Shown here piece by piece: positions 9,743 to 23,581 of a DNA stretch of 38,988 nucleotides; the stretch's first letter is position 1; every line of letters begins with the position of its first letter. Made by a program: the position numbers and the translations under genes. This DNA comes from Chloroflexota bacterium (lineage in GTDB: Bacteria; Chloroflexota; Anaerolineae; Anaerolineales; VGOW01), in the NCBI GenBank assembly GCA_016875735.1, contig VGOW01000035.1, positions 1 through 38,988 on the forward strand. Direction: 5' to 3'. The notes below the pieces were generated by a model. The model saw only the letters and a list, made by a program, of their open reading frames with translations, was not told the DNA's origin and did no database searches.

Positions 9743-11632
9743 GACCGCGTTGGCCGCGAGGGCGTGAATGTCCGCGCGAACCCACAAATCGAACGCGCGC
9801 GAGAACTCGGCCGGCCAGTTGCGGTGCAGCCACCAATTCACAAAGGATCGGGCGGTGACATCTGCTTGCAACGGGCGGGATTGCGCGGGGAAACGGTCGC
9901 CGACGTAGGCCGCACCCAGCGCGGGATCGGAGACTCCGTCCGTCGTGATCACCACCGGGCTGTTCGCCGCGCCCGCCAACGAATCGACATATCGGGCACG
10001 GGTGAAGTCTCGCAGTTCCCAACCCAACAAACCATCGCGAACATCGGTGGGCGAGCTGCTCACCACTGCGATCTCCACATCTTCGGCTTTGCCCGTTGCC
10101 CGAAGCGATGTATGGCGAATCTCGCTCACCATCAGCCGGATGTCGCGCTGAGTCGCCGTCGGAGTCCAAAGTTCGCCGGGGTTGCCCGTCCGCCACTGAG
10201 TGAGCGCCAGCCCCGCGCCCAGCGTGCCAATCGTCGTGGCGAGGCCCAAAGCGATGGCCGCGCCGCGCACCGCCGATTGCGCGCTCCACCCGGCGGCAAA
10301 CAGAATCGTGACGACGACTCCGAGCGCGGTCACAGCGAGCGCAAGATACAGATTCAGATCGGGCGGCGCGTTGAGGATCGTCGTCGCCCCGCGCGCGTAC
10401 GCGGCCAGATTGAAATATACAAACACCACCATCACAAATAGCGCGCCCGCTTGCGAGATCACCGTATCCCGTTCGCCCTCGAGCCACTCGCCGGAAAACG
10501 TTTCGGCCAGCGCTTTGCCCGCCAGCATTGCCAGCGGCACAACAACCCACACCGCATCACCCGCTTCGCGGCCCGGGTACAGAATCGCAAAGGCCATCGC
10601 GCCGACGGCCATCGCGCCCATCGCGGAGGCGGCTTCCCGCCAGATCAAGCTGGCGGCTCCCCGGCCCGCAAACGTATCTTCAAGAGCCGGGTCGCGGGCA
10701 GAAAAAATTTGTCGCACTCGCTCAATCAATGCATGCCAGTATTCCGAAAGAAAGGCGACGTACAACCCGCCCGCGCCCATCACGGCGAGCAGCGGCTCAT
10801 ACGCGAATATCATTTGCGGCGCAAGCCAAGGCGCGCGCGCCGCGCCGCCGAGCATCCACCCGGCCAGCCAGCGCGGGAGCGCCGCGCCCGCCGCCGACAG
10901 CCCCGCCGGGTTGAGCAAGCCCGCTGTCGAAAACAGCGCGAACGTCACTGCCGCCGCCGCAAGCATTTTCCAAAATTGTGATCGGAAAGTGGGGATGCCT
11001 TCGCGGATCGAGCGCGCGATCTGCGGCTGATTGAGCACGACCATCGTGAGTCCCAACAGTGACGCCGCCGCCGCCGATACAAAACGCGGCCCGCTGGCCA
11101 ATCCCAACCCGAGTCCGATTCCGGCCAGCAGAGGGGCGCGGTCTGCGCGGCGAATCGCGGCGATGACGATCAGCAGACTGAGCGCGGCGAGGGTTGTGCC
11201 ATCGGCGGCGCGCGAGGCGGCCAACATCACCGGCGAGATCGCCGACAGCGCGCAGGCCATGAGCGCCGCGCCGCGCCCCATCTCACGGCGGAAGATCATC
11301 GGCGCGAAAGCCACCGCTGTTCCGGCGAGCGCCGAAAGGAAACGCGCCCAAAACTCGCTAGCCCCGAACAGCAAAAACGAAAGTGACGTGAGTGTGTGCA
11401 GTGCCGCGCTCGTCGGCTGAACCGGGGCAATGGCCGAAGCCGAAACAAAACGCCACGCGGCCAGCGCTTCGCGCGCTTCGGCCAGCGAGAGCGGCGCATC
11501 GCCCAAACTAAAAAGCCGCAACGCCAACGCCAACGCGCCGATGAGCAAATACAATCCAGATTCCACATTGAGGGCGGCGGCCCACTTCAATTGCGCGGCC
11601 GCCTCATCTTTTTGCGCCACAGCCATCGTCAT
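9737..11632 (-). CDS. GT39/ArnT-like polytopic membrane protein
   Basis: This 631-residue protein has many hydrophobic spans and a GT39-like N-terminal region: LRLFSLGDAPLSLAEAREAL, then LHTLTSLSFLLFGASEFWAR. The usual first-loop Asp-Glu pair is replaced by a SLAEAREAL segment, so catalytic competence is uncertain. The C-terminal soluble part (from about residue 530) is probably extracytoplasmic. The start is the ATG at 11632, because it forms an ATGA overlap with the stop of the upstream YYY gene. The longer open frame to 11869 only reads antisense-like sequence inside that gene. Translational coupling ties it to the YYY protein, and the Agl23-like gene follows. Confidence 0.82.
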   Translation of the reverse strand: MTMAVAQKDEAAAQLKWAAALNVESGLYLLIGALALALRLFSLGDAPLSLAEAREALAAWRFVSASAIAPVQPTSAALHTLTSLSFLLFGASEFWARFLSALAGTAVAFAPMIFRREMGRGAALMACALSAISPVMLAASRAADGTTLAALSLLIVIAAIRRADRAPLLAGIGLGLGLASGPRFVSAAAASLLGLTMVVLNQPQIARSIREGIPTFRSQFWKMLAAAAVTFALFSTAGLLNPAGLSAAGAALPRWLAGWMLGGAARAPWLAPQMIFAYEPLLAVMGAGGLYVAFLSEYWHALIERVRQIFSARDPALEDTFAGRGAASLIWREAASAMGAMAVGAMAFAILYPGREAGDAVWVVVPLAMLAGKALAETFSGEWLEGERDTVISQAGALFVMVVFVYFNLAAYARGATTILNAPPDLNLYLALAVTALGVVVTILFAAGWSAQSAVRGAAIALGLATTIGTLGAGLALTQWRTGNPGELWTPTATQRDIRLMVSEIRHTSLRATGKAEDVEIAVVSSSPTDVRDGLLGWELRDFTRARYVDSLAGAANSPVVITTDGVSDPALGAAYVGDRFPAQSRPLQADVTARSFVNWWLHRNWPAEFSRAFDLWVRADIHALAANAVK

Positions 11633-14229
11633 TGCCCGCCTGCCATTTCGTAAATCGTCACTCCATCGGATTGATAGATCGCGTTCATATTGCGGTCGAA
11701 CTTCGTCAGCCCGTCGTCGCCGTATTGGCTTCTCTCCGCCGGGCCAACGTACACGTATCGAATGTTGTATTTTTGCAGAATGGGCAAGGCCGCTTCCCAA
11801 TCTCGCGCCGTGTACAGAATTCTCACATCCTCTTCGCGCCCGGCAAAGGATTCGGCTGTGCCGCGCCACTGCAACTCATGAAACGGCCAACCCAACACAG
11901 TGGGCAATCCGGTGTGCGCCGACACGCGCGCAAACTCGGTGTAACTTCCGCCCACCGCTTCGGCAATCACCGGCCTGCCCTTCACTGTGGCATTGAGAAA
12001 TTGAATCGCCCTGTAATCGGCGGCGCGGCTGAAAGCCATATACGCCATGCCGTCGAGCGTGGCAACCCGATCGCCGTCCGCATCGCGCGTCGTGCCCTGC
12101 CAGTTTTCGGTGATCGTCGTCGTCGCCAGCGTCGGATAGATCAGACCGATCACCACCGCCGCCGCCGCCACGGCCCCGAACAGAGTCTGCCCCAGCGGCC
12201 TCGCCATTCGCAACACCATCCACACTCCGAACGCTCCAGCCACCGACCACAACACCCAAGCCTGATAATAAAACTTGAAGATCGTATTCATGCGCGTGCT
12301 GAACAGATCGCGCAGATAGACGAACTCCGGGCCGAGTGTGAGTAGCGCGCCGGTGGCGGTCAGCACGGCGGCGAACACGGCGGTGGATGGGAAATTTGAA
12401 TCCGGCGGGGCGCCGCCATCGTTCGCGCGGCGCGGCCCGAACACGAGTGACGCCGCCACCGCCAAAATGGCCGTGATCAGAATTGGCGTGAGCGCTCGTT
12501 CGATCTCCAATCGCCGCCGCAAAATAAGCGCGGGGGCGCTTGGCAGTGGCGCGCTGCCGATGAGCGAATCGATGGCGCTCTGCACTTCGGGGCGGCCGCT
12601 CAACAAAATCACCATCGTGAGCGCGGCGCAAATGAGGATGAGGCCGGCCAGCGTTGCCAGCCCGCTCGCCACGCCGCTCCGCCAATTGGCCCGGTTGAAG
12701 TTGCTCGCCGCCGCCCAGCCCAGCCACGGAACGACGACGAACAGCAACGGGCCGAACATGACGATGAATTGCTGGATGCGCGCGCCAAAAACCACGTTGG
12801 GCAAAATGCCGCCGAGCTGCGAGCGGAAGCCAATGTAAAACGGCAAATACAACACAACCCCCAAGGCCGCGAGGCTTGCGCCGAGAACCAATCCATCGCG
12901 CCACACGATGTCTGTCCATCCATCGCGCCGCACGCGAGCAACGGCGTGCGCGGCAACGCACACAAAAACGTAGATCGGAAAATCCCATGTGTTGAGGAAT
13001 GACAACCCGCCGAGAATGATCGCCCCCGCGAAAAGGTCGAGCCACGGCAGAGGCCGCCATGCCGCAGAGACCGACGCGGTCTTGGAGGCCGCGTCGGTCT
13101 GGCCCAAAAACAAGTTGAGGGCGAAAGCGATCCCCAAAAACACGAACGGCAGTCCGAGCACGTGCGGGTGCATGTCGCCGAGCAAAAACGAAAAGAAGGG
13201 GAACTCGTCGATCACTTCAACTTCTGCGCCAAAGAGATCGCGGTCGTGAATCACTCGCGATGACTGCCACCACCACAGAAAACGATCGGGCGCGAACGAC
13301 GGCATCCCTTCGCCGGGCGCAGAGGCAACGGGCGGGTTGTTCGTCCACTTGATGTCCACCCAGCCCCAAAAGTTTGATTTGTAATCGCATCCGGCGCACG
13401 CGGCTTCGGCTTCGGGCTGGCAAATGACGCAGTAACGATTATCGGCGGAGCATTGGATGCAGGCTTCAGTTTGCGACGGCTCTGCCGCCAACCAACCGAG
13501 TTTGTGCGCCACTTCCAGCCCGCCGTTGAAATTGCCGAGAAGAATGAACAGCGGCCCCAACAATGCGGGCGCAATTGCGCGAACGAGCGATTGCTTGCCC
13601 GCCGCCGCGATCATGTTGAGCACAACGCCAAACGCGCCCGTTGCTGTCAGCCCGAAGAGCAAAGCGATGGCGAGATTGAAGGCCACGCCCGGCATCACGC
13701 CGGAGAGCGCGGTGAGCATTCCGACGATCACATATCCGAAGTGATAGTAGCTGATGGCGTAACCGGAGAGCCATGGGTCGCCGGGCGGCTGGGCGCCGGT
13801 TCGCAATACCGAATTGAGAAAGGCGAACTCCATCGGCTTCTCGGTGGCGGTGATGGTGGGGTTAAGGGAGCGAGCATAAGCCCAGAAGCCGAAGGCGATC
13901 AGAAAAATCACTTCGACTGCCAACACCGATCCCCAATTGGTTTTGAGCCACTGCCGAATCTCGCTCGAGGTTTCGCCGCGCAGACAGGCCAGCGATGCCG
14001 CGCCGACGATCATGAGCGCGGCCATCACGCCGCCCGGGCTCACTTGCGTGAAGCCGAAGTTGCCGAGAAGCCAGCCCGTGTAGCCGACAGCCAACAGCCC
14101 GCCGGTTTTACTCAGCGAGTATCCGCGATCGGGAAGGAAACGGAAGAGGCGAAAAAGGATCGGCCAGGCAACGATTCCAAAGATGGCCACGATGAGCCAC
14201 CACGAGGCAAAACTCTGCGCGTCAGTCAT
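11629..14229 (-). CDS. YYY-family (DUF2298 / TIGR03662-like) membrane protein with Cys-rich loop
   Basis: This 866-residue polytopic protein belongs to a family I know mainly from Chloroflexota and methanogenic archaea. It has the hallmark TEKPMEFAFLNSVLR, then GYAISYYHFGYVIVG (the 'YYY' segment), WWWQSSRVI, and DEFPFFSFLLGDMHPHV with a D-x-H-x-H motif near residue 351. The C-terminal soluble domain (DGMAYMAFSRAADY... to TIYEM) matches the end of the 1659-residue protein. Function is unknown; it is presumably a GT-C-like surface glycan enzyme. Oddities: three CxxC pairs within 25 residues (CIQC, CVIC, CAGC) in a loop at about residues 255-280, and an in-frame palindrome insertion at 13068-13100. 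Its stop overlaps the next start (ATGA). Confidence 0.85.
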   Translation of the reverse strand: MTDAQSFASWWLIVAIFGIVAWPILFRLFRFLPDRGYSLSKTGGLLAVGYTGWLLGNFGFTQVSPGGVMAALMIVGAASLACLRGETSSEIRQWLKTNWGSVLAVEVIFLIAFGFWAYARSLNPTITATEKPMEFAFLNSVLRTGAQPPGDPWLSGYAISYYHFGYVIVGMLTALSGVMPGVAFNLAIALLFGLTATGAFGVVLNMIAAAGKQSLVRAIAPALLGPLFILLGNFNGGLEVAHKLGWLAAEPSQTEACIQCSADNRYCVICQPEAEAACAGCDYKSNFWGWVDIKWTNNPPVASAPGEGMPSFAPDRFLWWWQSSRVIHDRDLFGAEVEVIDEFPFFSFLLGDMHPHVLGLPFVFLGIAFALNLFLGQTDAASKTASVSAAWRPLPWLDLFAGAIILGGLSFLNTWDFPIYVFVCVAAHAVARVRRDGWTDIVWRDGLVLGASLAALGVVLYLPFYIGFRSQLGGILPNVVFGARIQQFIVMFGPLLFVVVPWLGWAAASNFNRANWRSGVASGLATLAGLILICAALTMVILLSGRPEVQSAIDSLIGSAPLPSAPALILRRRLEIERALTPILITAILAVAASLVFGPRRANDGGAPPDSNFPSTAVFAAVLTATGALLTLGPEFVYLRDLFSTRMNTIFKFYYQAWVLWSVAGAFGVWMVLRMARPLGQTLFGAVAAAAVVIGLIYPTLATTTITENWQGTTRDADGDRVATLDGMAYMAFSRAADYRAIQFLNATVKGRPVIAEAVGGSYTEFARVSAHTGLPTVLGWPFHELQWRGTAESFAGREEDVRILYTARDWEAALPILQKYNIRYVYVGPAERSQYGDDGLTKFDRNMNAIYQSDGVTIYEMAGGQ
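13068..13100. repeat. In-frame palindrome inside the YYY gene
   Basis: AGACCGACGCGG (13068-13079) and CCGCGTCGGTCT (13089-13100) are perfect 12-bp arms around a 9-nt loop. On the coding strand this gives QTDAASKTASVS, a small-residue linker between membrane spans. It looks like a mobile palindromic repeat tolerated in frame. Confidence 0.65.
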
Positions 14230-14278
14230 TCAACTCTCGAATTGAAGGGGCAGGGAATGAGGGCGGGGTATGCGGGCA

Positions 14279-14773
14279 TCAATAAGTTTGGATGGGCGCG
14301 GGGGTGAGCGTGGGTGTGTGAGAGGCCATTGCCGGGTGTGTGGCCGACAGCGTGGGCGTATCACTGCGGATAACGACAGCGGCGGGCGTTTGGATGTACG
14401 GCACGCTGGGCGCAGAGGCCCGCGCCGCGCCCAACGATACGCCGGACACAAAAACCATCGCCGCCACTGCCATGCTCGCCGACACTTGCCACGACCGATT
14501 GCGCGCGCGCGATGCGCCCGGCAAGCCGATGGGCAGCGGCGTTTGCCATCGTCGGCGGACGGCCTCCCACCCGCGAACGGTGTTCACGGGGAGATGAGTA
14601 AGCGCCCGCGCGGAGTCGGCCACCGCCGAATATGTTTCGCGCAGCGCGGCCAATTCGGCGCGGCAGGCATCACAGCCGCGCAAATGCGATTCGATGCGCG
14701 CCGCCTCGTCGGCGGCAAGCCGCCGCTCAATGAAGGCCAGCAATTCTTCGCCAACGTGATTCGCAGAGATCAT
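14279..14773 (-). CDS. Anti-sigma factor with zf-HC2 (ZAS) domain
   Basis: This 164-residue protein fits a zinc-binding anti-sigma factor that holds the cognate ECF sigma factor at the membrane. The N-terminal cytoplasmic part has the ZAS signature H-x3-C-x2-C in RIESHLRGCDACRAEL. A single membrane span follows near residue 95-115 (VSASMAVAAMVFVSGVSL). The C-terminus is a short Thr/Pro-rich extracytoplasmic tail. The start is the ATG at 14773, which overlaps the sigma stop as ATGA; an upstream in-frame start would lie inside the sigma gene. The translational coupling and gene order are classic for an ECF/anti-sigma pair. Confidence 0.9.
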   Translation of the reverse strand: MISANHVGEELLAFIERRLAADEAARIESHLRGCDACRAELAALRETYSAVADSARALTHLPVNTVRGWEAVRRRWQTPLPIGLPGASRARNRSWQVSASMAVAAMVFVSGVSLGAARASAPSVPYIQTPAAVVIRSDTPTLSATHPAMASHTPTLTPAPIQTY

Positions 14774-15429
14774 TGTTGACTGCTCTCCAAAGCTTCCAAC
14801 CATTCGCGCCCCGCGTTACCTTCAACAATCAATCGCCGTCGCAGGGCGGCGATGGCCGCGCGCACTCGCGACTCGGCGGCCTTTGCGCCGCAACCCGCCG
14901 CTTCGCCAATTTGGGCGTAGCCCATCGCGCCGACGAAACGAAGAACGATCGCCTCGCGAAGTTTGGGCGAGAGGCTCTGCACTTCGGCCCACAGTTCGCG
15001 GCGAACGCCGCGCGCGGCCAGCCAATCTTCGAGCGGGCGAGCGGGCGCGTGTTTGTGAGCCTCCGCCGACTCTTCTCTGGCGAACCACAACAGCGGGATG
15101 GAAGCCAGCCATTTGCGGCGGCGCTTGTTGCGGTAGCGGCTGATGGCAATCGTAAAGAGCCAAGTCTGAAACGCCGACTTCGACGGATCGTATCGGCGCA
15201 GGTTTCGCAGGGCGTACACAAACGTGTCCTGCGTCACCTCGTCAGCGTCGTCGGCGTCGTTGAGCAAACCAGCCGCCAAACGGAACACCGCCGGAGCGAA
15301 TCGCCGATAGATGGCCTCTGCGGCGGCTTCATCGCCATTGCCAGCGGCGGCCAGCCAATCGGTCAAGCGTTCATTACTGTTATACACGGTCACTGGTAGA
15401 AATCCGTTGTGCGGGCCAAGAGTCTTCAC
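14770..15429 (-). CDS. ECF-family RNA polymerase sigma factor
   Basis: This 219-residue sigma-70 family protein has only regions 2 and 4. Region 2 spans about residues 40-105 (EAIYRRFAPAVFRLAAGLL, DADEVTQDTFVYALRNLR, FQTWLFTIAISRYRNKRRR). Region 4 spans about 145-205 (LSPKLREAIVLRFVGAMGYA, then a helix-turn-helix ending RVRAAIAALRRRL). The GTG at 15429 overlaps the R-M stop (GTGA). A later GTG about 40 nt downstream could also serve, because the first residues are not conserved. Targets are unknown, but the surrounding surface-glycan genes are natural candidates. It is followed by its anti-sigma factor. Confidence 0.92.
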   Translation of the reverse strand: MKTLGPHNGFLPVTVYNSNERLTDWLAAAGNGDEAAAEAIYRRFAPAVFRLAAGLLNDADDADEVTQDTFVYALRNLRRYDPSKSAFQTWLFTIAISRYRNKRRRKWLASIPLLWFAREESAEAHKHAPARPLEDWLAARGVRRELWAEVQSLSPKLREAIVLRFVGAMGYAQIGEAAGCGAKAAESRVRAAIAALRRRLIVEGNAGREWLEALESSQQ

Positions 15430-18400
15430 TCGATAGGCCAGCGCGGTATGGCTTTGTCAATCTCTGCCATGAGGCGCATCGTTTCTTTCAGGGCAACAAC
15501 CACCCGCTGATAATGCGCGATGTCGTCATTGCTCAACGTCCGCCCCTTGCGGTCTTTCAGCCATTTGTCGCAAACTTGATAGCCGCCGACGCGGAACTCC
15601 CACACCGCCTCCGGCACGCCGCCGAAGTATTGCGAGTCGTTGATCCAGACTTTTCTTTTCTCGTGCTTCACCTTTTCAACGGCGTTACTGCCCGCAACAG
15701 AGTAAGACGTGATGAAGTTATCGAGCGCGGGCGATTTGAGCAAATGCAGGCCGACGAGTTCTGCGCCTTTGGCCGCAAGTTTGGCGAACAGTTTTTTGTC
15801 AGAAGTGAGCGGCAGGCGCGGGAAATCTATTTTGAGAAATTCGGCGTAACGCTCACGGTAGACGGGCGAATGGAAGATGGCATAGGCGTAATGGAAAACA
15901 TCTTCCGGACCAAAGGTCTTCTTCAAATCGCCCGTGCCGTCGGCAGCAAACGTCAAGCCCAGTTTTTGAGAGCAGTCCGCAATGAACTTGTCGGATAAGT
16001 TTGGCCGACGCCCATTTTCGTGATCGAAGAGCGTGGCAGGGTAATCACCATTGGGATAGAGGTAGAGGGGGAAAAACGAATTGATGTCATAGGCGGCGCA
16101 CGATTTGTGGCCGCAAACGTGTTCAGTGGCTAGCGCCCCCCACGCATCTCGGGTTTGCCGTGTAGCGATCAGGCCGATGTTTTCCCCCGACAACATATGC
16201 TGCATGACTTCGGCGCGAGGCATGCACATGAACCCCCGTGTCTGGCCAGTGTAGTACGTATGCCTGATGTCAAACGGCCGATAAAGGAAGCGCGCAAGTT
16301 TTGACTTGTGAACCCCATGCTTCCGAATGTCGGCTTGAGCCAGAGCGACTTTCCAATCGCGGACATCTTCGCCCAAATCAAATTTCATGCGCGCCATTTC
16401 CGGCGGCAGAGAGACGAAATCTTGCACTCGACTCAAGATTTCTTTCTCTGTCCAACCAATTGTCAAATCGTCTCGCGCAGTCACGATGCCCGCCGAATGC
16501 ACCGGCATGATCTCCGTCAATTTCCAGCCTGGCTCATATTCGGCGCGGATTCTCCCCGCTTGCGGAGACAGAAGATAAGCAGGTTTAACAGGGCGTGCAT
16601 TCCTCCATTTCAATGAACGAACATCGTTGCGCTCCAAGAATGCATACTTTCTGGCTCGCGCTCCCCAAAGCTGGGCGTGACGCGCTATTGCTAAACCGTC
16701 CCGCTTTTGGATGCGCGCAAGGTGTTGAGGCGGCAGCTTTATTGCCAAGATGATCGCCACCCCTTGTTGAATGTCAAAAATATTTTCGTCGGGGCCACCA
16801 TCCGGCGCACGTTCTTTCTTCTTACTATTGCCGTGCAAGTCCAACACATAGAGTTCATCAAAGGACTTCAATAAATGCTGTCGCATCCCGCGAAAAGTAG
16901 GGTTGTCGAGGTAGCCGTGATTGGTGATGAAGGCAACTATGCCCTGCCCTGTTTGCTCAATGCGCCACTGCGCGAAGCGAATGAATTTCACATAATCATC
17001 TTGGAGCCATTTCGGGTTGCGTTCACCCAAAGGCCGCCCATCCACCGAGTAATAGTCGCGGACTAATTCGCCAATCCATTTGCCTTTATTGGCTGAGTGG
17101 CCGGAATACGGCGGATTGCCGACGATGACCATAATCGGCGCGTTCTTCTTCACCTGCGCGGCTTCGCTGGCTTCCTGCGAGATGTACCAGCCCAAATCTC
17201 CCAGCGTCTCAGAACGAGTCACCCCCTCGTCGAGCGCATTGGTCAAATAGATGCGGAGGCGATCCTCTTTGCCCCATATGTAATTCAGGTCTCGAAGCAG
17301 GAGGCCGAGTTTCAGATGGGCGATGACATACGGCGCAACCAGCAGTTCAAAGCCGAACAGGCGCGGCAAGAGATTCTGATGAACGTACTCCTGCCACGCG
17401 CCGCCCTGCCGTTTGCTCATCAACGTTTCGTGAATGACTCGGACGGCGAAATACAGGAATGTGCTTGTGCCAGTGGCGGGGTCGAGCAGATTAACGTCTT
17501 TGGCGGCCAACCCGAGCGGGCGATCAAAGCGATCTCTCAATAGCGAATCAACCGAGTTGACGATGAATTGAACGGCTGGCTCCGGCGTGTAATACACGCC
17601 GCGACTCTCGCGGAGTTTTGGATCATATGCGGCAAGGAAGGTTTCATAGAAATGCACCACGGGGTCTTCCGTCCGCGTGCGCTTGCCAAAGTCTTTGAGA
17701 ATAGCGCTTAAGTCGGCGCGGGCCAACAGCGAGGCAATGTCATCCAGAAACGGCGCAATCAGCGTATTCTCCAATTCTTCGCCCACATCCAAAAACAACT
17801 TGCGGAGAAAGCGATTAGCCGAAAGATGCTGATACGCAGAGGAACGGCTGAACCCCTCGCCCCCATCGCCTCTCCCGGCGGGAGAGGCGGCAGGGGTGAG
17901 GGCGCTCACGCGAGCGGCGAACAACCCATAGGCCATCGTCTGCGCGTAGATGTCGGCAAACTCACCGGGTTTGAGGTTGGGAAGCAGGTATTCTTGAAAT
18001 GCCTTGTATTGCTTGTGGAGCGCCCCGCTGATCTCCTCTTCGGCTTGAAGCGCGTTGAAGGTCAAATCGCGGATGAGTTTTGCCAACTGCGCCATGCGCT
18101 CGGCCAAATCGCGAGGCGTGCCGACGATGGGAATTTCGGTCTGATAAAACTCATTGAATAACTGCTCGGCGGTGGCGATACCTTCCGGGTCGGGCGTCAA
18201 CTTTTTATGCTTGCCAATCGAAGCAAGGCATGCCGTGAGTTTGCGCTGCCCATTGACGTACCAGCGAAATTCAAGATAGTCGGTCAATATCAAATTATTG
18301 AGCGACTGTCTATAACGCTTGAGTTGATCCGACTTTTCGACTTTGTCGAGATCAACGCCAACATCCTTTGTCTCGACGTAACCGAGAGGAACACGGCGGC

Positions 18401-18581
18401 GCTCCACAATGAAATCGGGCGCGCCGCACTCAATGTGCTTGGGGTCGTTGGAGGCGTCAACGCCGGAAGCCAGCGATTCCAGCAACCACTCCAACGAGGA
18501 GCGGTAAGTGTGCTCGGTGGCTTTGCCACTCTGCAAATCGCTCTCGATCCGCTGAAGGTAGGTTTCGAATAGGTTCGCCAT
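15426..18581 (-). CDS. Single-chain type ISP/IIG-like restriction-modification enzyme
   Basis: This 1051-residue protein should cut DNA and methylate adenine within one polypeptide. The N-terminus has a PD-(D/E)xK nuclease signature: PDFIVERRRVPLGYVETK, with D56, E70 and K72. A helical linker and a gamma-class N6-adenine methyltransferase follow, with motif I LLDPATGTSTFL near residue 365 and motif IV NPPYSG near 488. The C-terminal half resembles the target-recognition domain of type ISP enzymes (LlaBIII-like). The SF2 helicase module of classical type ISP enzymes is absent, so a type IIG-like mechanism is more likely. A GC-rich palindrome is inserted in frame at about residues 227-242 (ALTPAASPAGRGDGGEG). 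It sits between two glycan genes, 20 nt after the 1659-residue gene, and its stop overlaps the sigma-factor GTG. The motifs make the class secure; the recognition site cannot be read. Confidence 0.88.
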   Translation of the reverse strand: MANLFETYLQRIESDLQSGKATEHTYRSSLEWLLESLASGVDASNDPKHIECGAPDFIVERRRVPLGYVETKDVGVDLDKVEKSDQLKRYRQSLNNLILTDYLEFRWYVNGQRKLTACLASIGKHKKLTPDPEGIATAEQLFNEFYQTEIPIVGTPRDLAERMAQLAKLIRDLTFNALQAEEEISGALHKQYKAFQEYLLPNLKPGEFADIYAQTMAYGLFAARVSALTPAASPAGRGDGGEGFSRSSAYQHLSANRFLRKLFLDVGEELENTLIAPFLDDIASLLARADLSAILKDFGKRTRTEDPVVHFYETFLAAYDPKLRESRGVYYTPEPAVQFIVNSVDSLLRDRFDRPLGLAAKDVNLLDPATGTSTFLYFAVRVIHETLMSKRQGGAWQEYVHQNLLPRLFGFELLVAPYVIAHLKLGLLLRDLNYIWGKEDRLRIYLTNALDEGVTRSETLGDLGWYISQEASEAAQVKKNAPIMVIVGNPPYSGHSANKGKWIGELVRDYYSVDGRPLGERNPKWLQDDYVKFIRFAQWRIEQTGQGIVAFITNHGYLDNPTFRGMRQHLLKSFDELYVLDLHGNSKKKERAPDGGPDENIFDIQQGVAIILAIKLPPQHLARIQKRDGLAIARHAQLWGARARKYAFLERNDVRSLKWRNARPVKPAYLLSPQAGRIRAEYEPGWKLTEIMPVHSAGIVTARDDLTIGWTEKEILSRVQDFVSLPPEMARMKFDLGEDVRDWKVALAQADIRKHGVHKSKLARFLYRPFDIRHTYYTGQTRGFMCMPRAEVMQHMLSGENIGLIATRQTRDAWGALATEHVCGHKSCAAYDINSFFPLYLYPNGDYPATLFDHENGRRPNLSDKFIADCSQKLGLTFAADGTGDLKKTFGPEDVFHYAYAIFHSPVYRERYAEFLKIDFPRLPLTSDKKLFAKLAAKGAELVGLHLLKSPALDNFITSYSVAGSNAVEKVKHEKRKVWINDSQYFGGVPEAVWEFRVGGYQVCDKWLKDRKGRTLSNDDIAHYQRVVVALKETMRLMAEIDKAIPRWPIE
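17854..17902. repeat. In-frame GC-rich palindrome inside the R-M gene
   Basis: Core arms CGCCTCTCCC (17867-17876) and GGGAGAGGCG (17880-17889) flank GGC, with a longer imperfect outer stem (CCCCTCGCCCC against GGGGTGAGGG). The coding strand gives LTPAASPAGRGDGGEG, a peptide typical of palindromic repeats read through in frame. Confidence 0.75.
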
Positions 18582-18601
18582 GCCGCGAATTGTAGTGCCA
18601 G

Positions 18602-21600
18602 CTAGTGATTTTGCAAAACTTCGTAAATCACTGTGCCCTCATTTTGGTAGGCTATCTTGAGCAACCCCTTTTCAGCCATGCTCTCGAACTTCGCCAGTGA
18701 CGGCGCCGGGAAATAGACTCGCTCATACTCACCCACGACAATATATCGCACGCCGTATTTTTGCAAGAAGTCCATCGCCTGCTGGTAATCGACCCCCATG
18801 TAGAAAGCGTTGATGTCATTCGACCGCTGCCACACGAGCCGATCGGGCAGGAGCACTCGCTGTTGGCGCTGATGCCAGTTCCAGCCCAGCACACCGGGCA
18901 GGCCGGTGTTGATCGTGTATCGCGATCCCCAGCGGTATTCGGGCGCGTTCACTTCTACGATCACCGGTGAGCCTTTCACGTTTTCCTGCATCCAACGAAT
19001 CGCGTCGGCGTCATATTTGAGATCGAACGACTGCCCCTGATCAGCATAGCGAGCATAACTCATGTACAACATGCCGTCGAGCGCGCGCGGCGCGGCGGGC
19101 GCGATCCGATCCTGAACTTTGGCCGATGTTGCCAACACTGTATACAACGCCGCCGCCGTGACCAACGCCGTGAGGCCGAACTGCCACACATTGCGGCTCA
19201 ATGGTTTCCACTCCGGCATCTGCGCCCAAACCCAAGCAATGGCCGCGCCCGATGCGACGCTGAACAACGTCCACACTTGCAGGTAAAACTTGAACACGGT
19301 GTTCATCCGGCCAATGTCGCCTTTGGCAACGACGACTTCCACCATCACCGTCAGCGTCAATCCGAGCCCGATCAACCCCAGAGCCGCCCGCCGTTCGGGT
19401 TCGGCCTCCCTGCGGATCATCAGCAGGCCCGTCCAGGCAATGAGCGGCACGGCGAGGAGAGCCACATCGTATCCGAGCCACCACATGCCGAAGACCATCA
19501 GCATGAAAGCCACAAACGCAAACAGCGCCGGGCCGAGCAAATCTTTCACTTCGTCGAATGGAATCTTCTGCATCCATCGCCGGGTTTCGGTGAGCAGAAA
19601 AACGAAGATGACGAATAGAAACAGGCCGTGAACGGTGAGATACGAATCGAGGGGCGTTTTGTCGCCGCGCCACAATTGCACCGAGCCGTAGCCCTCGCCG
19701 CGCCAGTGCGAATAGGGCCAAAAGAATGCCAGCGACAGCAGGATGAGCAAAGCACAACGCCATGCAGTTTCGATGGCGTACCGCAAATCGATCTTGCCAT
19801 GCTGGCGCAGTTGGCCGTAAGCGATGGCAACACACCCCAGCGCCCAATAAGTTTGATAATCGGAAAGGTTAGATGGCTGAATCGATCCGAACACAACGCC
19901 GCCCACGATCCACAGCGCCGCCGTTTCGAGCCAACGCCGTTCGCCGTCGGCCGCTGACATCACCGCCGAGAGCGCCCAGCCCAGCGCAATCACCGTGATC
20001 GTCAGCACGATCATGTGCGCGTGCAAGTCAGCGTACAAAAAGGTGAAAAAGGGAAACTCGGTGATTGGGATAGTCTGCTGATCCGGAATGACTCGCGTGG
20101 CGTTCCAATACCATTCGCCCGTGCCGATCATCACCGGCGTATGCTGAACATAGATTCGCCAGATGCCCACCGCCGCCCTCTGCCAATCGGTGATGAATTG
20201 AATCGGCGTCGTTGCCGGAACATCGAGCGCGGCGCGAGTGAGCGCCTTCATGATCGTCTGCGTCTGCCCCAAGTTGCCCAGCGCCACAAATAACAGCGCG
20301 GCGAACACGCCCGCCAAATATGGATTGGCTACGATGCGCTGTACGCTGTGCGGCGTGGGCAATGAACTGCTCGCCATTCGCTGGCCGGCCGCCACAAGAT
20401 TGAAAGCCACGCCGAACGCGCCCATGCCCGCCAGCGAAAACAACATCGGCAGAATTAAGTTGTAGGCAAAGGCGGGCACGATGCCGAGCATCTTTGTCAG
20501 CGCGCCCACCACTACAAAACCGAAATAGTAATAGTTGAGATAGCCGCCCGCGTACCACGGATCGTATGGCGGGAACGACGTGCTTTTGAGCACAGCGTTG
20601 AAATACGAAAAATCCATCGGCTTCTCGCCGCCGTAGGCCGGGTGCCACAGATCGCCGTTGCCCCAACGGATGAGCAAAAAGAAAACGAACCACAACAGCG
20701 ACAACAATTCGACGGCGAGGGCGTAGCGCCAGTTCACTGCAACCCACGCTTTGATCTCCGCAAAACGCCGCCACAGAATCAGGGACGCCGCCACCGCCAT
20801 CACTCCGGCAATGATCCACAATGCCCATTGGGTGAAAGGAAGGATGCGGAAGCTGGCGAGAAACCACGATACCCACGCAATGAACAACAGCGCCAAATTG
20901 CGCGAGAGGGCATAGCCGCGATCGGGCAGGCCGCGCAGCGCGACGAAGGCGATGGGGAAAGCGATGAGGCCGAGCAACACGCACGCAAGCCACCACACGG
21001 CGACGCCCAATGGTTGGTATTTGTTGAGCGGCGATTCTCGATTGAACAGCTCGGCCCACGTGCCCCCTGCCCTTTGCTCGGCGAGGCGATCATCGGGCAG
21101 CATGAGCATGGTGGGCGCGGCGGTGGCTTCGCGCGGCCCCTGCGCCACCACCGTATTCAAGTCAATCGCCTCGAGCACAGCCATCGCTTTCTCGATGTCG
21201 AAGTCGGCGCGTTTCTTGAAAACCCAAACGGGCGCATGATCGTACACGCTGAAGGCTTCTTCGGCGGCGAGCGGGTTGTCGTTGAACAGAGGCGGAGTCG
21301 GCGTCGCGTTCCACGCCCACGATCCGCTCACATCCGAAATTTTCAACGGCCCAATCGTGATCGGCGAAGTGAAGGTCGCCGCCAGATCGAATTCGAGCCG
21401 CCCGTCGAACAGGGCCCGATAGTATTCCATCGTCATCGGATACGCGGCGGGCAAACGCGAGGTGCTCCAGATTCCGCGCTGGCTGGGCAGGATGATGTAA
21501 TCCACTTGGGCGAGGTTGGTGCGGAACATGAGCCGTTTGTTTTCGTCGTCGTTCCAGCGCACCTCCATCGTCATGCCTTGATACAACCCGCCGAAGCCGT

Positions 21601-23581
21601 CGCGCCCGTCGAGGCGCAAAGGCAAGCCCTCATCCCAATTCTCGTTGGCGATGATCGAGCCCCACAACTGCACCGGGTTGCCGCGCGGCGCGCTGAGAAG
21701 CAAATAGTACGGCACGCCTTTAGTCACCGCCGCCGGGCCGAACGAAATTGATCCGCCGCCGCCGCGTTCGTCTCCGATTTTCGGAGTGGTCGTCAAATCG
21801 GCAGAGGCCAATGGTTGCAGCCCGCCCGGATCGGCGGCGAGCACAACGTGAATGGTGTGCGGTGCGTTCGAGAATCCGTCGCCCGCATAGCCCACCGAAA
21901 ATTCATTGATCACGCCATCGATGCGCGGAGAGAAGGGCACGGGGATGGGAAAGTCGGCGCCGACTTGCATGCCGAAGGGAACGGGCACCGGCTCGGTGTG
22001 GGCGCCGGTGGCGGTGTCCATCCGAAGATTGATCGGCGCGGGCACGTTGCCGTAAATCCAGCGCGAGGCCTGAATGCGCGTGTTGTCCGTCCGATAGATC
22101 GAGGTGAAGCCCCATGCCCACGCAAGGCTACCGATCAAGATAATCGCGCCGAGGGCGATGGACGAAAGACGAAAAACAAAGGGCATTCGACGATTGGCAG
22201 TGTTCGTCATCCGTCGTTCGTCCTTCCTCTTCACTCCGAGATTCCACAACTCGCACAGCGCCCATGCGGCGAAGAGGGCAAGGAAAGGATAGATGGGCAA
22301 GAAGTAGCGCATGGATTTGACCCAGCGCGTGCCGGTGAAAAGAAAGAAGCCGCCCGTCCACAAGAGGGGAAGCAGATGCTTCTGCCATTCGTTTTTCTGA
22401 AAGGCGCGGCGCATGGCCCACAGGAAACCGCCCCACGCGGCGGCGCCGAGCGGCAAGCCCATGCCCCACAGCACGATGTTGGTGAGCGGGAAGATGATGG
22501 CCGGGCGATTCGTCCACTGTTCGCCGGGCGGCCCGCCGCCCACGCCGCTCGATTCGGCTTGCGCCACCGCCATGCTCGTCAGCCATTCGGGGTTGGGGGT
22601 GACGGTGAAGATCGTTGTGTCGCCCGTCGTGGCGCGGAACGACATGGGCTGTGTGACTCGAAACGTGATGAGCGACACGACTCCGGCCAGCGCCAACAGC
22701 GTGAACACTTTGCCGATGCCAGCCGCAGATTTCGAGTCACTGCTTTCGCGCAGGAGGGTGTCGGTGTTGGCGATGAAGGCGGCCACGACGATCATGCCCG
22801 CCAATGGAACGAGATTGATGCGCGAGGCGACAGCCATGCCGAAGAAGAGGCCGAAGAGGGCGTACCACACCGCCCCCCCCCGTCCCCCCCCGCTTCGCGG
22901 GGGGGGCAATACAACCCTCACCGCGCAATACATTGCCAGCATCACGAACAGCACGGCAAAGTTGTCGGAGGTCATGAAATGCGATTGCTGAATCTGCATC
23001 ACGGCCAGCGCGCTGAGGGCCGAGGCCAGCAGGCCCACGCGATGACTGTACAGCCGCGCGCCGATGAGGTAGGTCACAAACAATGCCAATACATCGCACA
23101 ACGCGGAGAGTGTGCGCCCCATGAGTCGCAGATCGCCGTAGGCGGTGTTGTCGGTGAGTTCGGCGGTGATACGGATGAGGATGATGGGCCACTGCCCCCA
23201 GCGCATCCGGTTATCGGGGCCGGGCGCGGCGAGCGAGCCGGCCTCATCGTATTTTTGGTAGGGGCTGATGGAGGAGAGGCGCGTGTTGAAATAGTCGCCG
23301 AGCGTTTTGGGGATGGAAAGGCGGGTGAGTGTGCTGGTGAGGCCGTATTCGTCGGGGTGGAGGTCAGTGCCCTGATTCCAATTCACCCAGTTGAGGCGGA
23401 AGTAGATGCCTACAACGATGAGGCCGATGAGCAGAAGATCGAATGCAAAGCCCAGCACATCCGCGAGGGTTCGAACGGCTGGCCGAGGTCGAACGGCGGC
23501 GTCCGACGGAGTGGAGGGCAGGTCAGGCGAGAGGTCGGGCGAGGGTTGCTCGGCGGCGTCTGTCGCGATCGTTTCAGTCAT
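18602..23581 (-). CDS. GT-C glycosyltransferase fused to a YYY (DUF2298-like) membrane domain, 1659 aa
   Basis: This is an exceptionally large fusion. Residues 1 to about 860 form a GT39/PMT-like module: a Pro-rich cytoplasmic N-terminus, a first span, then LHPDEYGLTSTL with the Asp-Glu pair (D77, E78), further spans, and a soluble beta-rich domain. From about 870 a second polytopic module matches the 866-residue YYY protein: GLPDRGYALSRNLALL, EKPMDFSYFNAVLK, LNYYYFGFVVVGAL, and EFPFFTFLYADLHAHMI (D-x-H-x-H near 1186). The C-terminal soluble part is shared too. A heptamer array (22160-22229) and a GC palindrome (22884-22906) are read in frame in loops of the first module. It lies 5 nt after the 728-residue GT-C gene and 20 nt before the R-M gene. 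The substrate is unknown. Confidence 0.87.
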   Translation of the reverse strand: MTETIATDAAEQPSPDLSPDLPSTPSDAAVRPRPAVRTLADVLGFAFDLLLIGLIVVGIYFRLNWVNWNQGTDLHPDEYGLTSTLTRLSIPKTLGDYFNTRLSSISPYQKYDEAGSLAAPGPDNRMRWGQWPIILIRITAELTDNTAYGDLRLMGRTLSALCDVLALFVTYLIGARLYSHRVGLLASALSALAVMQIQQSHFMTSDNFAVLFVMLAMYCAVRVVLPPPRSGGGRGGAVWYALFGLFFGMAVASRINLVPLAGMIVVAAFIANTDTLLRESSDSKSAAGIGKVFTLLALAGVVSLITFRVTQPMSFRATTGDTTIFTVTPNPEWLTSMAVAQAESSGVGGGPPGEQWTNRPAIIFPLTNIVLWGMGLPLGAAAWGGFLWAMRRAFQKNEWQKHLLPLLWTGGFFLFTGTRWVKSMRYFLPIYPFLALFAAWALCELWNLGVKRKDERRMTNTANRRMPFVFRLSSIALGAIILIGSLAWAWGFTSIYRTDNTRIQASRWIYGNVPAPINLRMDTATGAHTEPVPVPFGMQVGADFPIPVPFSPRIDGVINEFSVGYAGDGFSNAPHTIHVVLAADPGGLQPLASADLTTTPKIGDERGGGGSISFGPAAVTKGVPYYLLLSAPRGNPVQLWGSIIANENWDEGLPLRLDGRDGFGGLYQGMTMEVRWNDDENKRLMFRTNLAQVDYIILPSQRGIWSTSRLPAAYPMTMEYYRALFDGRLEFDLAATFTSPITIGPLKISDVSGSWAWNATPTPPLFNDNPLAAEEAFSVYDHAPVWVFKKRADFDIEKAMAVLEAIDLNTVVAQGPREATAAPTMLMLPDDRLAEQRAGGTWAELFNRESPLNKYQPLGVAVWWLACVLLGLIAFPIAFVALRGLPDRGYALSRNLALLFIAWVSWFLASFRILPFTQWALWIIAGVMAVAASLILWRRFAEIKAWVAVNWRYALAVELLSLLWFVFFLLIRWGNGDLWHPAYGGEKPMDFSYFNAVLKSTSFPPYDPWYAGGYLNYYYFGFVVVGALTKMLGIVPAFAYNLILPMLFSLAGMGAFGVAFNLVAAGQRMASSSLPTPHSVQRIVANPYLAGVFAALLFVALGNLGQTQTIMKALTRAALDVPATTPIQFITDWQRAAVGIWRIYVQHTPVMIGTGEWYWNATRVIPDQQTIPITEFPFFTFLYADLHAHMIVLTITVIALGWALSAVMSAADGERRWLETAALWIVGGVVFGSIQPSNLSDYQTYWALGCVAIAYGQLRQHGKIDLRYAIETAWRCALLILLSLAFFWPYSHWRGEGYGSVQLWRGDKTPLDSYLTVHGLFLFVIFVFLLTETRRWMQKIPFDEVKDLLGPALFAFVAFMLMVFGMWWLGYDVALLAVPLIAWTGLLMIRREAEPERRAALGLIGLGLTLTVMVEVVVAKGDIGRMNTVFKFYLQVWTLFSVASGAAIAWVWAQMPEWKPLSRNVWQFGLTALVTAAALYTVLATSAKVQDRIAPAAPRALDGMLYMSYARYADQGQSFDLKYDADAIRWMQENVKGSPVIVEVNAPEYRWGSRYTINTGLPGVLGWNWHQRQQRVLLPDRLVWQRSNDINAFYMGVDYQQAMDFLQKYGVRYIVVGEYERVYFPAPSLAKFESMAEKGLLKIAYQNEGTVIYEVLQNH
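22160..22229. repeat. Heptamer array inside the coding frame of the GT-C/YYY fusion
   Basis: Ten 7-nt units (GGACGAA, AGACGAA, AAACAAA, GGGCATT, CGACGAT, TGGCAGT, GTTCGTC, ATCCGTC, GTTCGTC, CTTCCTC) have inverted halves, like the intergenic arrays. They are translated as a basic loop that includes KRKDERRMTNTANRRMP. Confidence 0.7.
22872..22907. repeat. In-frame G/C-tract palindrome inside the GT-C/YYY fusion
   Basis: CCCCCCCCGC (22884-22893) and GCGGGGGGGG (22897-22906) form a 10-bp stem with a 3-nt loop, next to a second C9 run. The coding strand gives LPPPRSGGGRGG in a loop between membrane spans. Confidence 0.75.

Follow-up and report, generated by a model that had tools for sequence, protein, structure and literature searches.

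Related palindromic repeats

Rickettsia palindromic elements (RPEs) are the classic example of palindromes contributing peptide segments to proteins. At a much smaller scale, the small dispersed repeats (SDRs) of Nostoc form a hairpin backed by compensatory changes, and following the account of Elhai in 2008 they are reportedly confined to a cyanobacterial subgroup. In-frame palindromes within Rickettsia genes are recorded in a review that places about half of the RPEs in genes (PMC10969869). The TM_ECO repeats of Escherichia coli K-12 are described as always intergenic and as divisible into types A and B by their second loops, TTA and CCG respectively (PMC4666352), and a repeat of the form CCCTCTCCCXX(X)GGGAGAGGG is recorded for Enterobacter sp. 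638 (PMC2869309). Two further publications document GTAG/CGTC-type REPs lying within genes for DNA polymerase I and DnaE (PMC3733652), and PARCELs, palindromic coding repeats of punctate distribution that are arranged in tandem and code for 25-residue domains (PMC2996958).

The three palindromes and their host genes

The window, a stretch of 38,988 nucleotides that makes up one entire contig of a 4.15 Mb Chloroflexota genome in 150 contigs, contains three palindromes, and inspection of the sequence and its open reading frames (ORFs) confirmed the initial annotation in placing each of them in frame within one uninterrupted ORF of a long gene. The first (family A, 13068..13100) is a 33-bp near-perfect palindrome, AGACCGACGCGG-N9-CCGCGTCGGTCT, with 15-nt arms (93%) and the minus-strand reading QTDAASKTASVS; its minus-strand host gene (11629..14229) codes for a multi-spanning DUF2298 (PF10060) membrane protein of 866 aa. 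The second (family B, 17854..17902) is a 49-bp imperfect palindrome, probably of degenerate TM_ECO/intrastrand-triplex type, with 24-nt arms (83%) and the minus-strand reading LTPAASPAGRGDGGEG, located in a minus-strand gene (15426..18581) for a type ISP/IIG restriction-modification (R-M) enzyme of 1051 aa (Type_ISP_C PF18135; PADLOC REase_MTase_IIG). The third (family C, 22872..22907) is a hairpin of C and G runs with a GCTTCGC centre and a perfect stem at 22884-22906 (10-nt arms, 100%), and its minus-strand host gene (18602..23581) codes for a 1659-aa fusion of an N-terminal PMT/GT-C part with DUF2298.

Four hairpins scoring at least 10 were detected in the window, three of them being these palindromes, where 25 Markov-1 surrogates gave an expectation of about 0.8, so that their self-complementarity is only mildly unusual; chance was excluded for A and B because both recur in the genome. 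The three belong to separate families and are not one kind of element. An Rfam scan of the window returned no matches. A perfect hairpin with 12-bp arms at 523-549, between two convergent ORFs, is probably an ordinary terminator-like structure.

Families A and B are neither RPEs nor tagged REPs. Judged by the description of RPEs, both share with them the dispersal of palindromes in frame in unrelated genes, and about half of the B copies are genic; but the Rickettsia type first proposed for them proved a misfit, with units of 33–49 bp (A, 33 bp in 73 of 96 copies; B, 49 bp) in place of about 150 bp, and with A mostly intergenic. A resembles the SDRs of Nostoc in being very small, in its covarying hairpin and in its nesting within larger repeats, but differs in spanning at least four phyla. 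In common with GTAG/CGTC REPs, A is a small palindrome with intragenic copies in polA and DnaE-type genes (PMC3733652), whereas it lacks tag and tail, is near-perfectly symmetric and has no linked RAYT that could be found in its own genome. The likeness to PARCELs extends to palindromic coding repeats and punctate distribution but not to tandem arrangement, the inserts of A and B being single loop insertions (PMC2996958).

Family A: unit, stem and distribution

When a 91-bp stretch around 13068-13100 was used as the query, matches elsewhere in the genome covered the 33-bp palindrome and little more. The consensus of the family is AGACCGACGCGG-TTT/TCT-NNN-AAA/AGA-CCGCGTCGGTCT. The set of 96 copies, drawn from 46 own-genome stretches, the window and 80 loci from an exact-arm search after removal of identical flanks, includes four members of 30, 31 or 38 bp with differing centres from Streptomyces (L175), Oscillospiraceae (L214), Hyphomicrobium (L216) and a bog Syntrophobacteraceae (L226), which are probable chance matches or terminators. 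Across 35 distinct copies, 97.9% of the cells of the 15-pair stem were paired, and the covariation score of 0.094, driven mainly by a U-A to C-G exchange at pair 14/20, compared with 0.063 in shuffles and was reached by none of 500 of them, kin rows possibly inflating the shuffle control and the arms of most rows being set by the search pattern.

About 14 copies were located in the own genome, of which 13 are intergenic and several lie within 20 bp of a gene end. With a coding fraction of 0.885, based on gene calls from a codon model trained on the window, this single genic copy in 14 means that A avoids genes in its own genome.

Exact arms were found in 86 stretches among 84,980 species genomes, and the 80 loci returned came mostly from Anaerolineales/Chloroflexi metagenome-assembled genomes (MAGs), with one Syntrophobacteraceae MAG contributing many copies and others coming from three Chitinophagaceae, one Methylococcaceae and one deltaproteobacterial MAG. 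Only four of 400 sampled Chloroflexota, a sample whose rows do not include G001, G003 and G004, held exact-arm copies; the reversed control gave 0 in all. Searches with a covariance model, counting both strands, detected A in each of the five genomes belonging to the window's genus (29 matches in the own genome and 42, 26, 40 and 10 in the others), in G006 of the same order (4) but in none of three other genomes of that order, in two further MAGs assigned to Anaerolineales and Chloroflexi (15 and 80), and in two same-phylum genomes outside the class (74 and 22); three genomes are listed twice, as judged by identical positions (G451 as G001, G452 as G004, G454 as G003). The corresponding numbers elsewhere were 87 in the Syntrophobacteraceae MAG, 63 in the Methylococcaceae, 31 in the deltaproteobacterial MAG, 15, 13 and 6 in the Chitinophagaceae, and 2, both weak, in a bog MAG.

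Alignment of own and same-genus loci by blastn paired the 33-bp unit plus at most a few flanking bases, and between species the match was confined to the 33 bp. From its letters the unit is about 55–70% GC, and the Chitinophagaceae contigs that bear it are 36–39% GC. This combination of patchy spread, exact sharing of 33 bp and residence in low-GC contigs is read as horizontal spread of a small unit, among hosts that outside Chloroflexota are mostly MAGs in which mis-binning is possible. Viral contigs yielded no match; a single plasmid match (67% of the query, E 0.9) and a single phage match (88% of the query, E 0.09, 90% identity) were each taken as chance.

In the Syntrophobacteraceae MAG (JADGQM loci, e.g. 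L170, L173, L186), nearly every A copy serves as the hairpin at the centre of a larger repeat, about 90 bp long, that has inverted ends of its own and is possibly a MITE that captured A. Half units of A were also observed, in tandem with a 23-bp period (L223:4495-4619) and beside a full copy in mnmG (L248:5242-5292) and in an ABC gene (L217:2043-2096).

Family A copies inside genes

For eight of the 96 copies, the window copy included, Pfam supports the gene in which they lie in frame. It was applied to 10 ORFs with A, to the host genes of the three window palindromes, and to seven plus two further B hosts; in foreign genomes the A hosts were hand-picked long ORFs, so that genic copies in short or unannotated genes will have been missed. 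In seven of the 10 A-bearing ORFs the insert falls inside or between domains: between the exonuclease domains of DNA polymerase I (polA, L236), inside PF01134 of MnmG (L248), between the two parts of IspG (L218), and in a NACHT-LRR protein (L190), a DnaE-type polymerase (L208), an ABC ATPase (L217) and an LPG_synthase_TM/GT2 protein (L177). In L067 the insert is upstream of the domains, and L235 and L063 matched no family.

The fixed arms of A are free of stop codons in all six frames, and the usual length of 33 bp corresponds to 11 codons. Five of six genic 33-bp copies encode a polar peptide, (K/Q)TDAxxKTASVS, which gives a suggestion of frame preference (p 0.018 if the frame is preset, at most 0.053 for any frame).

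Comparison with solved structures showed extra residues at the A site in MnmG, placed the sites of polymerase I and DnaE between aligned blocks, and located that of IspG between its two aligned parts. The ABC ATPase, by way of contrast, aligns to its solved structure without a gap, indicating that A there replaced sequence and did not lengthen it. Only one other genome in the family of G176 supplied a DnaE, at 35–37% identity, and no empty site could be defined for that gene.

In the window DUF2298 protein (P0003) the A site is a connector of varying length among 29 homologues, several of which have loops as long or longer; none of the 29 carries the palindrome there, and no clear net gain from A was apparent. 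The AlphaFold model of this protein (mean pLDDT 87.9) places the insert (377-388) astride the end of helix 360-378 and the connector before helix 396-412, residues 384-388 having pLDDT values below 50. The initial annotation had all three palindromes falling in loops; at the A site this applies to the low-confidence connector and not to the helix end, and at the C site alignment supports a connector of variable length.

Family B: a TM_ECO repeat with genic copies

The 19-bp core of B was recovered at 32 places in the genome at up to two mismatches, the reversed control giving none, and extended copies approximate to CCCTCACCCC..CCCTCTCCC-NNN-GGGAGAGGG..GGGGTGAGGG. The TM_ECO pattern CCCTCNCCCN3-6GGGNGAGGGN3GGGNGAGGG had 10 exact matches among the 46 own-genome stretches and the window, the second loops TTA and CCG both occur among own copies, and one 33-bp own-genome copy was 100% identical to E. 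coli in the best records; with the E limit set permissively at 10, 5376 of 5426 E. coli genomes had some match to that copy. The exact pattern, the loop types and the E. coli identity together identify family B, to judge from its letters, as the TM_ECO/potential intrastrand triplex (PIT) repeat. The window copy is probably a degenerate member, fitting the pattern with two mismatches and a second loop of N3-7 as against a published limit of one mismatched pair and N3.

Where B departs from TM_ECO is in its Chloroflexota host and in the location, in frame within genes, of half of its core copies: 12 of the 24 copies with a strict core, a tally over stretches that were picked around matches and so not a genome-wide count. 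The peptide encoded is mostly LTPNPSPxGRGEG. One host, a type IIG R-M gene (L080:1948-4974), has B-type hairpins at two sites, one further diverged and one in the Eco57I domain shortly before NPPW; an N6/N4 methyltransferase-Mrr protein carries two copies, as does a TPR protein, in which the insert is beyond the matched repeats. The other hosts are an SHMT-GcvT fusion, a CoA transferase III, a MobA-like transferase, a glycosyltransferase, an FAD oxidase/CCG protein, a heparinase-like protein and the window type ISP/IIG enzyme (17854..17902). Genes for DNA methyltransferases or R-M enzymes account for three of these hosts. The expectation that this genome tolerates or spreads such palindromes widely was thus borne out for B, half of whose core copies are genic, and not for A.

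Empty sites were available for the CoA transferase. The own-genome protein reads RA-LTPNPSPTGRGEGVRVG-SRIDIS, with residues read from the DNA alignment, and the corresponding site is RAVTGEGSRIDIS in G002 (same genus, 77% identical) and RALTGEGSRIDIS in G021; the latter, though empty, already contains CCCTCACC, the left end of B. On balance the protein gains 12 aa, which falls short of the 49-bp unit. In G006 (78%) this loop holds a B copy of its own, with junctions that differ. The presence of B in one CoA-transferase loop in two genomes of different families (L096, L290), with a same-genus genome empty, is an observation compatible with a recurrent target or with gene transfer.

Both full-length homologues of the window R-M enzyme (P0001) are without the B segment, the net difference from L048 being 11 aa; the window sequence AARVSA-insert-EGF is matched in L049 by AAKTRAEGHF, and GAGGG, the right end of B, is present at the site in one homologue. 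The model of this host was poor (mean pLDDT 43.7).

Family C

Only four further genome positions matched C at E<0.01, sharing the GCTTCGC-centred hairpin or part of it. With so few relatives, all weak, an inserted element is not established. By alignment the C site is a connector between conserved blocks at which homologues have loops of all lengths, and hairpins of C's score are expected about once per window. The chances are even that C, and C only, reflects coincidence or low complexity: it is built of C and G runs, although the four positions elsewhere that have the hairpin or part of it tell against this reading. C is probably a low-complexity hairpin in a variable loop and nothing more.

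The earlier proposal that mobile palindromes had created new peptide segments accordingly finds its support in A and B, which are dispersed, probably mobile, and encode in-frame peptides, and fails for the weakly recurring C. Neither A nor B is unique in the genome or present at the same position in all homologues, and the search of the whole genome that had been advocated returned some 14 copies of A and 32 places for the core of B as against the few positions for C.

Mode of spread

Families A and B are dispersed as exact common units with a conserved hairpin and in-frame genic copies, A being patchily spread across phyla and one B copy having empty sites in relatives. We consider it quite likely that both are short palindromic repeats, non-autonomous, which multiply and pass from genome to genome with an enzyme supplied in trans. 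The unit recognised would be the hairpin, or a single-strand structure formed by it, and an enzyme acting in trans from elsewhere would move A and B as DNA. Genic copies would persist where the frame stays open, in variable surface loops, and selection may thus lie behind both loop placement and frame bias; the build of A (11 codons, stop-free arms, a polar peptide) would aid survival in genes.

Repeats of 2 bp, and none longer, flanked 11 of 78 A copies against 5.7 expected (p 0.019), a test that leaves out 18 JADGQM loci with larger common flanks, the figures with these being 22 of 95 against 6.4. No clean target duplication was found. The comparison of hosts with insertion-free homologues supplied empty sites for one B copy. 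Beside A copies no gene family recurred except generic kinase, regulator and ABC genes. Four Y1_Tnp (PF01797) genes (L166-L169), one very strong, were detected in the own genome, and no A palindrome was present within about 1.5 kb of them. At genic sites the length gained often falls short of the element itself (+12 aa in the CoA transferase, +11 aa in P0001, none for A in the ABC ATPase), and for this reason the sites do not show clean insertion of the full unit. A scan of 969,491 bases gave 22 solo A half-sites, about 4 being expected; as candidate transposon ends they were rejected, those inspected being half units in tandem, full copies that had diverged, or single matches.

Transposition in trans via a single-strand hairpin is the mechanism we favour, with template switching at microhomologies close behind and better fitted by the net-gain figures. 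This second mechanism, a real though lesser possibility, would spread the repeats without a transposase, by template switching during replication or gene conversion at short homologies; a fork stalled at the hairpin or triplex would copy the repeat into a site already resembling the repeat's end. It agrees with the want of a target duplication, with net gains shorter than the element, with the G021 empty site that holds CCCTCACC and the P0001 homologue that holds GAGGG, and with the tandem half-site arrays of 23-bp period (L223) and the half-sites beside A in mnmG and the ABC gene; TM motifs are moreover tied to instability in E. coli (PMC4666352). On its own, however, it leaves unaccounted for both the patchy occurrence of one and the same 33-mer in at least four phyla and the usual length of 33 bp (73 of 96 copies).

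That the palindromes are functional sites under selection (a terminator, a protein-binding site or an RNA hairpin) and not selfish repeats appears improbable: the intergenic position of 13 of 14 own-genome A copies, several no more than 20 bp from a gene end, and a hairpin kept by covariation would suit such a role, but in-frame copies in polA, mnmG and ispG, a very patchy distribution even among relatives, and a unit of about 55–70% GC within contigs of 36–39% GC would not. Least probable of all is that A and B are RAYT-moved REPs of the GTAG/CGTC type, since, for all that A falls within the 20–40 bp size range, that intragenic REPs are published for DNA polymerase I and DnaE genes (PMC3733652) and that the genome has four Y1_Tnp genes, no base is conserved in the 12 positions either side of A (95 copies), which leaves it without tag or tail, its symmetry is near-perfect and no A lies near the Y1_Tnp genes.

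Novelty and significance

A string search of mostly open-access literature with the A halves found no description of the family, which seems to be undescribed, and a search of the same literature found no account of TM_ECO-type copies inside genes, PMC4666352 being the only paper listed that uses the name TM_ECO; B is thus a known repeat type that is not expected there. Inside genes, A and B add a dozen or so amino acids with the frame intact, an outcome like that of RPEs but obtained with much smaller units, in several phyla, and for TM_ECO with a repeat described as intergenic. It is conceivable, at somewhat less than an even chance, that A is a selfish, gene-free 33-bp DNA which passes between phyla and enters genes, core genes (polA, mnmG, ispG) among them, as a ready-made loop peptide, such entry being made possible, on that reading, by arms open in six frames and a length of 11 codons. 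Should A move between phyla as a 33-bp unit, few mobile DNAs proposed would be as small. Conserved genes with and without a single insert make the question of tolerance directly testable.

A variant palindrome, AGACCGACGCGTCCTTCC..GGAAGGACGCGTCGGTCT, with a different inner stem, was also observed at L269:1203, L270:4749 (G176) and L177:4979.
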